Below, piece by piece: positions 1 to 60,252 of a stretch of DNA of 64,000 bases. Source of the DNA: Flavobacterium reichenbachii (GTDB lineage: Bacteria; Bacteroidota; Bacteroidia; Flavobacteriales; Flavobacteriaceae); assembly GCF_002217435.1 (NCBI RefSeq), contig NZ_MUHF01000003.1, forward strand, positions 248,001-312,000. The letters run 5' to 3'. The stretch's first letter is position 1, and each line of letters opens with the position of its first letter. The translations under genes and the position numbers were made by a program. The notes under the pieces are model-generated. The model was not told where the DNA came from. It worked only from the letters and a program-made list of their open reading frames with translations, and searched no databases.

Positions 1-1453
1 TGACAAGAGAAATCCAGTTTTTAGAAACGCTGAAAGTGCTTGTTATTTTTGCAGCCGCAGCTGTTGTGATTTCAGATTTTGGAGCTGTTGCAGTTCCGTC
101 AATTTTCCATTTATAACTATCATTTCCAATCGTTAAATCGTAGTTACCGCGAATATCTTTTCCGTCAATATCATTAACAACATATTTAGAACCTTCAACC
201 CAGTTCTCAAATAATACTGTTTTTTCGTCAAATATTTCGCCAGAAGTAATAACAAAATTGGCATAACTTCCTGCTTTTAAACTTCCTATTTCGTTACTTT
301 TTCCTAAAATAGCAGCAGGAATTGTAGTTAGAGCTTCTAAGGCTTTTGTTTTATCAAAACCGTATTTTATAGCTTTTAATAAATTAGGTTTAAAATCTTC
401 TATTTTTTTTAGTTTATCTGTTGTCAAAGCAAAAGTTACTCCGTTATCAGAAAGAACTTTAAGATTTGCAGGAGCTTGGTTCCAGAAACGCATATCGGCC
501 AATTCGATCTGATTGGACAAATAAGGGTTAGAAACATCATAAGCTTCCGGGAAACTTATCGGAATGATAAATTTTGCATTTGTATTTTTGATTTCTTCGA
601 TTCTCTCAAATTCATTTCCGCTTCCTTTTAAGACATAATTTAAGCCAAATTCTTTTGCGATTTTAGACGCTCTTAAACTGTTTAATTTATCCTCTGCAGC
701 AAAAATCTGAACCAGTTTTTCGTTAGCAGCCAAAGCCTCCAAAGACAAATCTTTAGTTTCAGAATTTCCTTTTTTATACCAATCCAAATCTAAATACATC
801 TGACGAAGTAAAGCCATCATACCCATTAATGAACTTGGATAGGCTTGATTGGTTAAAGCACTTTTTGTAAATGCAAAGTGATTGGTAATTTTTTCTGCAA
901 TAATCTGTTTGCTGTTTTCGGTATTGTTTAAGGCAACCAAAACTCCGGTTCCTTGTGCAATTCCGTCTGGAATATGCGTTCCTACAACACCAAAACCTGC
1001 TTTTAATAATTCTTCGGCTTTAGCCGTATCATATTTAAAGGTTTCGTAACCATTTAGTTCAGAACGAATACTTTCATTCCAGTAATATCCTGCTCTTTTA
1101 GTATCGTAAAGCAAATTACCTCTTCCAAGGTTTTGATTTCCTTTTGGTTTTTCTATACCAAAACTGGTATAAATATCAATAAACGAAGGATAAATTGTTT
1201 TTCCCTGAAGATCAATAACAATACTATTTTTAGGTATTGCTACAGTATTTCCAACCGCGGCAACTTTGCCGTCCTGAACTAATAAAGTTCCTTTTTCAAT
1301 TTTTTGAGTTGGAGTAACATAAATTGTGGCATTTGTAAAAACAGTAAAATTTTTGTTTTTGTTCTGTACACTTTCGTTAACAGGGAAATAGCTTTGAGCC
1401 TGTGTTTTTGTTAAAAAAGCAGTCAAAAAGAATAGTAGTAGGGCTTTTTTCAT
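1..1453 (-). CDS. Exported amidohydrolase family protein, N-terminal part (cut by window edge)
   Basis: An open frame runs from an ATG at 1453 to the left edge; about 484 residues are present and the C-terminus is missing. The protein starts MKKALLLFFLTAFLTKTQAQ, a Sec signal peptide ending in AQA/Q typical of Bacteroidota exported proteins. A short beta-domain follows (ATIYVTPTQKIEKGTLLVQDGK, here only outlined), then GKTIYPSFIDIYTSFG, the usual amidohydrolase entry strand, where a metal-binding HxH would be expected but IDIYTS is seen. Near the edge, KALEALTTIPAAILG and GSLKAGSYANFVIT match the C-terminal signature of the imidazolonepropionase-like subgroup. Two amidohydrolase halves are often fused in flavobacterial relatives of about 1000 residues, and this may be the first, possibly metal-free, half. 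Substrate unknown. Family assignment is firm, function is not. Confidence 0.8.
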   Translation of the reverse strand, partial: MKKALLLFFLTAFLTKTQAQSYFPVNESVQNKNKNFTVFTNATIYVTPTQKIEKGTLLVQDGKVAAVGNTVAIPKNSIVIDLQGKTIYPSFIDIYTSFGIEKPKGNQNLGRGNLLYDTKRAGYYWNESIRSELNGYETFKYDTAKAEELLKAGFGVVGTHIPDGIAQGTGVLVALNNTENSKQIIAEKITNHFAFTKSALTNQAYPSSLMGMMALLRQMYLDLDWYKKGNSETKDLSLEALAANEKLVQIFAAEDKLNSLRASKIAKEFGLNYVLKGSGNEFERIEEIKNTNAKFIIPISFPEAYDVSNPYLSNQIELADMRFWNQAPANLKVLSDNGVTFALTTDKLKKIEDFKPNLLKAIKYGFDKTKALEALTTIPAAILGKSNEIGSLKAGSYANFVITSGEIFDEKTVLFENWVEGSKYVVNDIDGKDIRGNYDLTIGNDSYKWKIDGTATAPKSEITTAAAAKITSTFSVSKNWISLV

Positions 1454-17248: not shown

Positions 17249-17264
17249 TCCCGAAGCATCGGGA
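17249..17264. repeat. TCCCGA-N4-TCGGGA palindrome
   Basis: TCCCGAAGCATCGGGA. First element of the repeat-rich, gene-free stretch 17110-18002. Confidence 0.6.
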
Positions 17265-17340
17265 CTAAGTTTATGCCACAGATTAAACTGGTTAATGGGT
17301 TTTTGTCCCGATTTTTAAAAGAAGCCAAATGTTTGGATTT

Positions 17341-17406
17341 AGCCCCGATAGAGGCAGTATCCTCGCAGTAGAACGGAGAGATAAAGCCGAAAGCGGGAAC
17401 TATGTT
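17341..17406 (+). ncRNA. Structured RNA-like element, copy 2 (partial 3' end)
   Basis: Begins AGCCCCGATAGAGGC and ATCC, has a variable middle, and ends AGATAAAGC, CGAAAGCGGGAA. It aligns without gaps in the 22-base 5' core to the element at 35074-35152. The pair CCCG (17344-17347) with CGGG (17394-17397) replaces CCTG with CAGG of the other copy, a compensatory change. The 3' end of this copy is less well kept. The strand is assigned by analogy only. Confidence 0.5.
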
Positions 17407-17433: not shown

Positions 17434-17717
17434 AAATGGGGGAATTTTTTTTACCACAAATTTGCTGCGCCTGTTCGCTATCGCTTGAGTCACAAATTTT
17501 CGCAAATTTTAATTTTGGATTTTTTGTAAAATTTATAAAACATAATCGTGGTTTCAACTATTGGAAACGTTACTTCAAAATGGGGATTTTTTTTACCACA
17601 AATTTGCTGCGCCTGTTCACTATCGCTCGAGTCGCAAATTTTCGCAAATTTTAATTTTAGATTTTTCGCAAAATTTATAAAACATAGCCCGTGGTTTCAA
17701 CCACGGGAAACGTTACG
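17434..17717. repeat. 142-bp tandem duplication (two copies)
   Basis: Copy 1 about 17434-17575 and copy 2 about 17576-17717; identical landmarks (the T8-ACCACAAATTTG junction, at 17453 and 17595) are 142 bp apart. Each unit holds a stretch with CTATCGCT(T/C)GAGTC(A/G)CAAATTTTCGC and ends in a GTGGTTTCAAC palindrome. The palindrome is decayed in copy 1 and intact in copy 2. Frames read through it are repeat artefacts. Confidence 0.8.
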
Positions 17718-34054: not shown

Positions 34055-35005
34055 TTATAACTTCCAGTTATTTCTGTCATTTTCTGATATAAAACTCCAG
34101 GCAATAATGCGGCTGGTTTTCTGACCTTGCGACATTTCTATTGTTTTTACTGTAATGGCATCGACTTTTTTAAGTATTTTATAGATACTGGCAAGATTTT
34201 CTTTTTTAGAAGCCAAAGTGGTAAACCATAAACATTGTGTTTTGTATTTAGCACTTTCGTAAATCATTTGAGTTATAAAACCAATTTCGCCGCCGTTACA
34301 CCAAAGTTCTGCATTTTGACCGCCAAAATTTAAAACAGGATTTGAAGTTTTCTTTTCTTTTGGATTTAAGTTTCCGATTTTTCTAACTGTTCCTTTATTT
34401 GCTTCTTCGACAGATGCATGAAAAGGCGGATTACATATGGTAAAGGTAAAACGATCTTCTGGAGTAATAATATTTTTAAAAATAAAACGTGCTTCGGTTT
34501 GCTGCTGTAAACTTATTACATCAATTAATTTTGGATTTGCCTCGATAATTTTGCTGCAATTTTCGATCGCTTTTTTGTCAATATCTGTTCCAACAAAACT
34601 CCAGTCGTAGACTGCGTACCCTAATATCGGATAGATTAAATTTGCTCCTGTACCGATATCTAAACCCAGAACAGAATTTCCTGTTGGAATCACTCCGTTG
34701 TTACTTTCGGCCAATAAATCGGCTAAATAGTGTATGTAATCTACACGGCCGGGAATTGGCGGACAAAGATAATTTGCCGGGATATTCCAAAATTCAAGAT
34801 TGTAATACGTCTGAAGTAAGGCTTTGTTAAGCACTTTTACGGATTTGGGATCACTAAAATCAATAGTTTCTATTTGATGTTTGTTTACAGAAACATAATT
34901 TTTTAATTCTGGACAATTTGCAGTAAGAAGTTCAAAATCATAACGGGAACGATGCAGATTTCGAGGATGTAAATTGTTTTTTTCAGAATTGTCTATTGCT
35001 TTCAT
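34055..35005 (-). CDS. rlmF: 23S rRNA (adenine(1618)-N6)-methyltransferase
   Basis: 316 residues, normal length. Methylates A1618 of 23S rRNA with SAM. The N-terminus NLHPRNLHRSRYDF is diagnostic for RlmF; the SAM-binding motif LGLDIGTGANLIYPI is near residue 115 and the catalytic FTICNPPFHAS near 190. The SGG/GGQNAELWCNGGEIGF region near 225 is also typical. Own promoter; followed downstream by the alpha/beta hydrolase gene. Confidence 0.96.
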   Translation of the reverse strand: MKAIDNSEKNNLHPRNLHRSRYDFELLTANCPELKNYVSVNKHQIETIDFSDPKSVKVLNKALLQTYYNLEFWNIPANYLCPPIPGRVDYIHYLADLLAESNNGVIPTGNSVLGLDIGTGANLIYPILGYAVYDWSFVGTDIDKKAIENCSKIIEANPKLIDVISLQQQTEARFIFKNIITPEDRFTFTICNPPFHASVEEANKGTVRKIGNLNPKEKKTSNPVLNFGGQNAELWCNGGEIGFITQMIYESAKYKTQCLWFTTLASKKENLASIYKILKKVDAITVKTIEMSQGQKTSRIIAWSFISENDRNNWKL

Positions 35006-35020
35006 TTTTTGAATTTACTG

Positions 35021-35028
35021 CAAAGATA
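35021..35028 (-). promoter_or_regulatory. rlmF -7 box
   Basis: TATCTTTG on the minus strand, 15 bases before the ATG. Confidence 0.55.
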
Positions 35029-35072
35029 GTCATTCCTTTTTTGAAAAAATGTACTTATAGTAACGGGTGGTC

Positions 35073-35152
35073 TAGCCCTGATGGGAGCGGCATCCTTTTT
35101 CTGGCTTCTTTAGCCGGGAAAAGATACAGCGGACAGCAGGAAACAGCTCCTT
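35073..35152 (+). ncRNA. Structured RNA-like intergenic element, copy 1
   Basis: GC-rich island in an AT-rich gap. A long hairpin (35094-35105 with 35113-35123, loop TTCTTTA) is flanked by conserved core blocks. CCTG 35077-35080 can pair with CAGG 35137-35140, and GGAGC 35084-35088 with GCTCC 35146-35150. The two pairings interlock, as in a pseudoknot. A second copy is at 17341-17406. Such AGCCCTGAT...AGCTCC elements recur in Flavobacterium genomes in my memory, and this may be the Flavo-1 RNA motif; not verified. The strand is tentative. Confidence 0.6.
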
Positions 35153-35186: not shown

Positions 35187-35849
35187 TTAGTCAAAACACT
35201 CCATTAAAAGCAAATCGCCATCGGTGTGTGTTATCGTGACAAGTCCGTCTTGTGCAACAGAATTACTGCTTCCGGTTCTGTAGCCCATGGTGAGTGTATC
35301 GTTGTCTAAAGGATATTCTAAATTGATCGAAAAAATGCCGTTTACGACTCCGATCGGGATGAGAGAAATTGGTGTTTTCTCTGTATACCATTTTTCGAAT
35401 TTATTAGGGAGCAAAAATATCTTAGAATGATCATCTAGAATGACAATTTTAAGCAGATTACGATAACGAACAATATTGGTAAGATTGGTGATGGTATGAT
35501 CTGCACGTCTTCCGGTTGCCCATACTACATTTACGGCAGGAATTTTTCTGGCTATTAGATAATCAAATGCTTTTTCTAAATCGGTTTTGTTTTGATCGGG
35601 AGCGTGTATTATTTCTATTGGAAATTGTGTGGTTTTATAAATTTCCGGATCAAAACCGTGATCAAAATCACCCAATAATACATCTACTTTTATTCCTAAT
35701 TCTATAACTCTCTCCATAGCAGAATCGAGAACAATAACCAATGGCGACCACTCTAAGAGCTGTCCCAATAATTCTGGATTGCAAGCTGCTCCGTTGGCAA
35801 TTATTAAGGCAGGTTCCTGATCGTCGCGTACAATATGGTGTGAAGACAT
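35187..35849 (-). CDS. Thiamine pyrophosphokinase
   Basis: 220 residues. Transfers pyrophosphate from ATP to thiamine to give TPP. The catalytic domain has IIANGAACNPELLGQL, LLGDFDHGFD with the metal-binding aspartates, QNKTDLEKAFDYLI, and WATGRRADHTITNL. The C-terminal beta-barrel ends with NSVAQDGLVTITHTDGDLLL, the thiamine-site region. No TPP riboswitch is visible upstream. Single gene. Confidence 0.95.
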   Translation of the reverse strand: MSSHHIVRDDQEPALIIANGAACNPELLGQLLEWSPLVIVLDSAMERVIELGIKVDVLLGDFDHGFDPEIYKTTQFPIEIIHAPDQNKTDLEKAFDYLIARKIPAVNVVWATGRRADHTITNLTNIVRYRNLLKIVILDDHSKIFLLPNKFEKWYTEKTPISLIPIGVVNGIFSINLEYPLDNDTLTMGYRTGSSNSVAQDGLVTITHTDGDLLLMECFD

Positions 35850-43154: not shown

Positions 43155-43221
43155 GATAATTTTTAATTATAGTTTAGATAAGAGTAACATTCACGGATCT
43201 CGCCAGAGGTTAGTCTAATTC
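43155..43221 (-). promoter_or_regulatory. Candidate structured leader of rplS
   Basis: The transcript from the -7 box would have a leader of about 67 nt. Bases 43209-43216 can pair with 43181-43188 (eight positions, one C-C mismatch), and inside that helix 43206-43208 pair with 43199-43201 around a four-base loop. The section is richer in G and C than its surroundings. Autoregulation by L19 is suggested, not shown. Confidence 0.35.
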
Positions 43222-60159: not shown

Positions 60160-60185
60160 TTTTAGACTATTAGTTTAATTCTCGA

Positions 60186-60252
60186 GTCTCAGTATCGGTC
60201 CTAGTTTTTAATATTATTTTAAAACCAGGACCGATAACTGAGACTTTTTTTT
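60186..60252 (+). terminator. Long hairpin terminator of the amino-acid dehydrogenase gene
   Basis: GTCTCAGT-ATCGGTCCT and its near complement AGGACCGAT-AACTGAGAC form a long stem with an AT-rich loop, followed by eight T residues. Confidence 0.85.

Follow-up and report, generated by a model that had tools for sequence, protein, structure and literature searches.

Flavo-1 elements of Flavobacterium: intergenic hairpins with a strand-specific fold, inherited sites and often replaced tips

Flavo-1 elements are inherited at their sites between Flavobacterium species, their stem covaries and folds in a strand-specific manner, on the strand modelled by Rfam, and their placement takes little notice of gene orientation or replication. 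At the resident sites, selection appears to act on one single strand, of defined polarity. The sequence analysed here is a window of 64,000 nucleotides from Flavobacterium reichenbachii (contig NZ_MUHF01000003.1), in which an earlier note had described two copies of a structured element, at about 17 kb and 35 kb. Its interpretation holds for the structure, the compensatory change, the recurrence in the genus and the suggested name, but not for a pseudoknot.

Identity of the two copies

Reading both stretches confirmed the positions of the copies, the gap-free alignment of their 5' cores and the wholly different hairpins between their arms (Table 1). Flavo-1 had been offered as a guess, and the proposed search with the covariance model of Rfam RF01705 matched the 35-kb copy at 35070-35147 with 74.1 bits against a gathering score of 42 (E 1.9e-14, window scan); its membership in Flavo-1 is settled. 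The 17-kb copy reached 36.7 bits at 17337-17404 (E 3.7e-4), under the cut-off of 42, and is a diverged Flavo-1 relative, no formal family member. R1, our own covariance model built from 82 genus copies that include the 35-kb copy (L030) but not the 17-kb copy, gave the latter 33.7 bits (E 6.8e-6, with rough calibration) and the former, itself a training row, 75.9 bits. In the 17-kb copy and in L201 of the same genome, a GGC/GCC helix replaces the first 3x3 loop and the tip is short.

Table 1. Features of the 35-kb and 17-kb loci (window coordinates)
Feature	Position	Strand	Basis
Flavo-1 element, type I (form A), full R1 match	35071..35151	+	Rfam 74.1 bits, R1 75.9 bits (training row)
5' arm	35074..35095	+	Read from sequence; pairs counted on relatives
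Variable apical hairpin TTTTTCTGGC-loop-GCCGGGAAAA, two T.G pairs	35096..35122	+	Sequence; variability and pairing in relatives
3' arm	35123..35141	+	Sequence; pair counts in relatives
Conserved 3' tail AGCTCC (last five bases: proposed pseudoknot partner)	35145..35150	+	Relatives
Weakly conserved upstream box, TTATGAAAACGATTGCCC in relatives at the same site	35053..35072	+	Positional profile
Second copy, diverged Flavo-1, short apical part, GGC/GCC helix for first 3x3 loop	17338..17408	+	Rfam 36.7 bits, R1 33.7 bits
Neighbour gene, 316 aa, reads away from element	34055..35005	-	ORF call
Neighbour gene, 220 aa, stop 35 bases past element, opposite strand	35187..35849	-	ORF call
TATCTTTG, between the 316-aa gene and the element, before that gene	35021..35028	-	Read from sequence

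The 5' arm of the 35-kb copy consists, in order, of AGC, CCTG, an A.G mismatch, a U-A pair, the G35083-C35134 pair, a 3x3 loop, GC, a second 3x3 loop and AT; the CCTG pairs with 35137-35140 and the GC at 35087-35088 with 35129-35130. The spacing between the AGCTCC tail and the core varies within the family. The element is antisense to both neighbour genes, which we take to resemble the 23S rRNA methyltransferase RlmF (316 aa) and thiamine pyrophosphokinase (220 aa), and TATCTTTG is presumably a -7 box of the Bacteroidetes type. Conserved letters, internal loops and the variable apical hairpin are the same as in the published Flavobacteriaceae family (RF01705; Weinberg et al. 2010, PMC2864571). 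Differences from RF01705 are the low score and changed inner helix of the 17-kb copy, and the structure of the Rfam entry itself, which is one hairpin and does not model the outer helix and third hairpin of the types II and III described below.

Several other features were noticed in the window. A direct repeat of about 140 bases in two tandem copies (ACCACAAATTTGCTGCGCCTGTTC..., read by eye) lies at 17450-17715, just past the 17-kb copy, and a palindrome TCCCGAAGCATCGGGA at 17249-17264; similar palindromes occur inside the Flavo-1 copies L114, L132, L155, L175, L190, L194, L199 and L243. An L19-Flavobacteria ribosomal protein leader (RF03130, 40.7 bits) is found at 43185-43212 on the minus strand. 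The inverted repeat at 60184-60246 gave a weak microRNA-family match on both strands, surely by chance, owing to its palindromic nature.

Covariation of the stem

Two variable pairs of the lower stem follow a strict rule. Pairs 9-76 and 13-72 are Watson-Crick in all 107 parsed intact copies and occur as all four pair types. These copies were obtained from 113 distinct pattern matches, six of which remained unparsed, with a pattern that left the four letters of both pairs free and demanded intact neighbours, so that decayed copies are absent from the count. The compensatory change claimed between the two window copies, where CCTG (35077-35080) paired with CAGG (35137-35140) corresponds to CCCG/CGGG in the 17-kb copy, is real and represents one instance of this family-wide rule. 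In the same 107 copies, pair 18-67 is T-A in 56, C-G in 49 and T.G in two, and pair 17-68 is G-C in 96, A-T in nine and G.T in two. Over 173 rows that include weak copies (alignments A1 and A2), Watson-Crick cells number 171 at 9-76, 163 at 13-72, 167 at 18-67 (plus five T.G) and 168 at 17-68 (plus three G.T). Rare swaps are seen over these rows at 12-73 and 10-75, with U12-A73 changed to C-G in five rows and to G-C in one, and a single copy, L180, carries G11.A74 in place of A11.G74. The short helices are separated by 3x3 loops with conserved purines.

On A1, which holds 82 of 83 candidate rows (L025 was left out for its long tip), the covariation score is 0.281 versus 0.109 ± 0.007 in shuffles, none of 500 being as high, and no slid version exceeds 0.085. 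Further pair types are not in excess of shuffles (17 vs 16.3). Thus, the lack of significant covariation that would have spoken against the earlier note was not found; covariation is strong and, together with the Rfam score of the 35-kb copy, bears out a structured element. A conserved stem with covariation is one mark of Flavo-1 membership, and occurrence in Flavobacteria, also found, is another. Folding of single sequences was no better than in shuffles for the 35-kb copy (RNA z -1.02, DNA z -0.97) and gave an RNA z of -2.61 for the 17-kb copy; judged on the sequences, the evidence for structure is comparative and does not come from the folding energy of the 35-kb copy.

The proposed pseudoknot between GGAGC (35084-35088) and GCTCC (35146-35150) is present as complementarity in the 35-kb copy but is not kept across the family and was rejected. 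Two of its bases, 35087 and 35088, are engaged in the conserved helix with 35130 and 35129, A15 stands opposite C87 in 31 of the 49 tailed copies having A15, and position 15 shows no covariation with its proposed partner in 85 tailed copies. Among relatives at the 35-kb site, A15 faces C eight times and T nine times.

Strand specificity of the fold

Mismatches within the helices are strongly asymmetric. Over 173 parsed copies, read with a pattern that permitted both G.T and A.C at constrained core positions, 46 G.T mismatches stand against three A.C (41 vs 3 loci), and core pairs alone on the model alignments give 14 and three. This excess indicates that one particular strand folds, since neither a double-stranded site nor a fold of the other strand would be expected to produce it. 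Divided by context, copies sense to the left neighbour have nine G.T and no A.C, antisense or divergent ones 12 and three, and the syntenic loci described below 14 and none; the surplus of G.T comes out, if anything, more clearly where placement is sense. Types II and III give 10 and 4. All these counts are inflated by shared ancestry among copies.

The 35-kb site across species

Eighty syntenic loci were fetched via the 220-aa neighbour gene, the named relatives being Flavobacterium. Beside this gene, an element recognised by R1 lies in the same orientation in 24 of the 80 loci and in the window, with the 316-aa gene behind it in 23 of the 24 (L109 being the exception). The tree made for these loci, rooted at its midpoint, has 78 tips, of which 23 carry the element, and presence on it requires 15 changes versus a mean of 20.0 and a minimum of 14 in shuffles; this closeness to the shuffle minimum means that presence is weakly clustered on the tree. 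As we read the tree, copies at the site occur on either side of its deepest split. Species without the element have other repeats or short spacers there, as is also the case in the rplS-IDH spacer among the loci listed. By eye, a clean pair of filled and empty sites was found neither at the 35-kb site nor among the rplS-IDH spacer loci listed. In the close relatives L147 and L154, the 35-kb site holds Flavo-1 in one and a repeat cassette, AAGTCCCAGAGGGACG..., in the other.

Pair counts at the site were made on 23 of 25 copies, after the aberrant L121 and L161 had been dropped. Pair 13-72 is G-C in 23 of 23, whereas the family as a whole most often has A-T there, and pair 17-68 is G-C in 15, G.U in three and A-U in five. 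All tabulated stem pairs stay paired, and the other tabulated changes fall at free positions. The 17-68 pattern strongly suggests, as far as the sequences tell, compensation in place through a G.U intermediate, at a site where both neighbour genes run on the other strand. Alternatively, replacement by another copy already carrying A17-U68 may have produced it.

Inheritance of sites and replacement of tips

Inheritance of sites is seen between the F. reichenbachii genome (62 elements) and G042 (47 elements, out of at least 64 matches, being used in this test), where 14 pairs share both flanks, all 14 with orientation kept, and 19 further pairs share one flank only. Core identity is 0.895 in 15 orthologous pairs vs 0.794 in 1753 non-orthologous pairs, and none of 5000 random draws was as high as the ten pairs between these two genomes. 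Apical identity is lower, with a mean of 0.636 in orthologues vs 0.499 in non-orthologues (p 0.0008 for the ten pairs), and mixed: eight of the 15 pairs are at or below 0.53, three lie at 0.72-0.79 and four at or above 0.89. This combination of high core and low, mixed apical identity implies that tips are often replaced while cores stay.

The 15 pairs comprise ten of the 14 double-flank pairs and five from an earlier locus set, with L001 used twice and L007-L058 resting on one flank. The double-flank pairs left out were L018-L065, L019-L070, L194-L213 and L198-L218, the first two of which touch a multicopy flank family, making their orthology less certain; earlier-set pairs left out include L004-L044 and L017-L059. 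The G042 copies L065, L068, L070, L072, L210 and L211 adjoin a multicopy segment, which probably represents rRNA operon ends, as judged from short spurious ORFs. A carrier transposon was rejected on the same grounds, as the multicopy flanks in both G042 and G051 have this appearance.

Tips also differ between genomes. The loop class GGKGTTC accounts for nine of 43 parsed copies in G000 and 25 of 41 in G042, and a second palindromic repeat, TCCCGARGCNTCGGGA-like, lies within the tips or arms of several copies.

Abundance, placement and candidate partners

The F. reichenbachii genome contains 65 Flavo-1 matches at E <= 0.001, 58 of them over the cut-off. In a genus sample that includes this genome, a match is present in 58 of 61 genomes and exceeds the cut-off in 56, in line with the earlier statement that such elements recur in Flavobacterium; the Rfam model found none in G018, G020 and G058, and copies per genome range from 0 to over 60, with at most 64 candidates scored in each genome. 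At family level, the sample of 149 genomes includes 96 with a match, 90 of them over the cut-off.

Gene contexts, which rest on mechanical ORF calling and are incomplete for 13 of 109 copies, are mixed. Of 59 copies in the F. reichenbachii genome, 19 are sense to their neighbour (co+), 18 antisense (co-), 11 divergent and 11 convergent, so that 29 are antisense or divergent. G042 leans towards sense (co+ 17, co- 6, divergent 8, convergent 6; n=37), and of 55 loci collected earlier across many genomes, 17 were co+, 22 co-, nine divergent and seven convergent. The constant orientation before a gene that a cis-regulatory leader would have was found in neither genome. Three genomes show no replication-strand bias (30/64, 22/41 and 16/33, with the origin assumed at coordinate 1), and split tests that do not depend on the origin position gave p values of 0.63-0.89 in these three.

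The motif TAnnTTTG, which we take to be the Bacteroidetes-type -7 box, is not enriched reading into the element (left 9 vs 16.6 expected, right 17 vs 16.4), counted over 117 copies, many from the 35-kb site, with expectations from simple shuffles. An own promoter of this type was therefore rejected. By the same kind of shuffle, TAnnTTTGC reading away is enriched on the left (24 vs 1.5, partly from one site) and on the right (11 vs 1.8). An upstream box is conserved at about -15 to -4 and is similar upstream of types I and III; at the 35-kb locus it differs from TAnnTTTG and was rejected as a promoter of that type.

Searches for a carrier or partner gave negative results. Phage and plasmid searches returned no Flavo-1 match, and IMG/VR none for one exact type I pattern, all with limited sensitivity; within that limit, the remnants of a mobile element that the earlier note had named as contrary evidence were not found. 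A RAYT/Y1 transposase as required partner was rejected, because Y1_Tnp matches occur in 41 of 61 genomes and 18 of the 20 without them still carry Flavo-1, among them the rich genomes G004 (at least 64 matches) and G029 (63). Hfq (0/61 genomes), TROVE (Ro60; 4/61) and reverse transcriptase (RVT_1; 32/61) were likewise rejected, since their distribution, compared by eye, does not agree with the Flavo-1 counts.

Related architectures

Two further forms carry additional helices. In type II, the element is preceded by GCGT(T/G)A and followed by a small hairpin and ACGCC; among 30 loci from ten other genera, 12 are of this type by our own reading, and by eye three G093 copies have an outer helix GCTT/AAGC or AGTT/AACT instead. 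Type III has a strongly conserved inner loop. Its pattern of 28 letters matched 42 times, in 14 of 61 genomes, and 22 of the matches are exact; as the pattern allows two mismatches in these letters, more diverged copies would be missed. The full form was read in 19 loci. Relatives of type III, such as L202 (1000-1085), L287, L288 and others, lie in recurring gene neighbourhoods in several species. Against RF01705, which treats them as a single hairpin, three type II copies score 60-63 bits; the scores of three type III copies are 30-36 bits.

All 30 parsed copies of types II and III have Watson-Crick pairs at 13-72 and at the outer pair that varies freely (G-C 19, T-A 10, A-T 1). Pair 8-77 is G-C in 24, A-T in five and G.T in one, and pair 9-76 is G-C in 26, C-G in two, T-A in one and A.C in one. 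No evidence is drawn from the first outer pairs, for which the pattern itself selected in part. According to these pairings, types II and III can form three-way junctions. Flavo-1 may be the plainest member of a superfamily that has a common lower stem and comprises at least three architectures: a hairpin (type I), a three-way junction (type II) and a three-way junction with a strongly conserved inner loop (type III). We advance tentatively, with clearly more doubt than confidence, that this superfamily is a host-maintained single-strand tag which works irrespective of how genes are oriented; its tip would pass between copies as a module, and its core would evolve at the site.

Possible mechanism and competing explanations

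The reading that we favour, although with somewhat less than even confidence, is that Flavo-1 is a host-kept RNA-type fold bound by a putative dedicated protein. Flavo-1 would consist of old hairpins between genes, retained at their sites from species to species, where selection would keep the fold of a single strand, the Rfam strand. This fold would be a long stem with two 3x3 internal loops, which in types II and III becomes a three-way junction; the putative protein would recognise the lower stem, and the apical hairpin would need only pairing, hence its frequent replacement. The covariation, the rare swaps that keep pairing, the G.T excess, the 17-68 steps, the 14 shared sites, the core identity and the outer pair of types II and III all argue for it. 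Against it stand the unenriched TAnnTTTG boxes, the 29 of 59 copies that are antisense or divergent, the folding energy of the 35-kb copy, the pair types on A1, the ancestry shared in the G.T counts with their 12/3 and 10/4 subsets, and the four protein families tried, which yielded no partner. Published transcript data also weigh against it: in Flavobacterium RNA-seq, as far as the accessible part of the report goes, Flavo-1 lies indistinctly sense or antisense and many copies fall outside transcribed regions (PMC9723704), with which our context counts agree in the main. We infer RNA rather than single-stranded DNA as the folded form, because of the conserved non-Watson-Crick loops and the G.U steps, and likewise that a protein binds it.

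As expression is left unexplained, single-stranded DNA is nonetheless a serious rival, if an unlikely one. The Rfam strand would then fold in unwound DNA and be bound by a putative recombinase, primase or repair protein, as in REP elements or attC sites. Such a hairpin would account for placement regardless of genes and for copies outside transcripts, the strand-specific tolerance of G.T may fit it too, and the swapped apical hairpins and the TCCCGARGCNTCGGGA-type palindrome inserted in tips or arms also favour it. However, replication-strand bias is absent in three genomes, the Y1 transposase family is missing from 18 of the genomes with Flavo-1, and the conserved loops and G.U steps would be more RNA-like. 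REP/REPIN elements are numerous intergenic imperfect palindromes mobilised by RAYT transposases. Flavo-1 resembles them in the first respect, but it is longer, is inherited at sites with compensatory change and does not depend on a partner Y1 tyrosine transposase gene in the genome. Integron attC sites are folded single strands with conserved unpaired bases and a variable tip; Flavo-1 is built similarly, although neither cassette arrays nor attC core letters were noticed.

We consider it doubtful that Flavo-1 is a selfish repeat mobilised in trans, without host role, whose structure serves copying only while resident copies drift. The copy numbers, the mixed orientation, the patchy presence at the 35-kb site and the loop classes that differ between genomes would suit such a repeat, and survivorship and gene conversion could mimic part of the contrary evidence. 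Yet most resident copies are intact (58 of 65 matches over the cut-off), stem pairs at the 35-kb site stay paired, and neither a clean filled/empty pair at the sites viewed nor a phage, plasmid or IMG/VR match was found. An independent trans-acting small RNA, present in many copies with an atypical promoter, perhaps the upstream box, is improbable: the conservation of this box before types I and III and the filing of the family as sRNA by Rfam speak for it, but the one promoter motif tested is not enriched, Hfq is absent from all 61 genomes and, in the part of PMC9723704 available to us, general transcription is not seen. That Flavo-1 acts in cis, as a UTR element regulating the gene before or after it, is disfavoured and would be very surprising. 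Some copies are sense to their neighbour, G042 leans that way, and several lie within 5' transcribed regions in the accessible part of PMC9723704; in the F. reichenbachii genome, however, co+ and co- are balanced, -7 boxes reading away are enriched beside the element, and the 35-kb copy is antisense to both neighbours.

Implications

Flavo-1 has been listed since 2010, and no function is given in the literature searched. In the publications naming Flavo-1 or RF01705 (including PMC2864571, PMC9723704, PMC9029176 and PMC12306157, most subscription papers being outside the scope), neither a function nor types II and III nor tip exchange is reported in the parts accessible to us. The apparent in-place compensation on one strand and the placement with scant regard to genes or replication narrow the question: at dozens of loci in a genome, something recognises this strand of Flavo-1 in single-stranded form. 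Types II and III offer a better model, and their strongly conserved loop could serve as bait for the partner.
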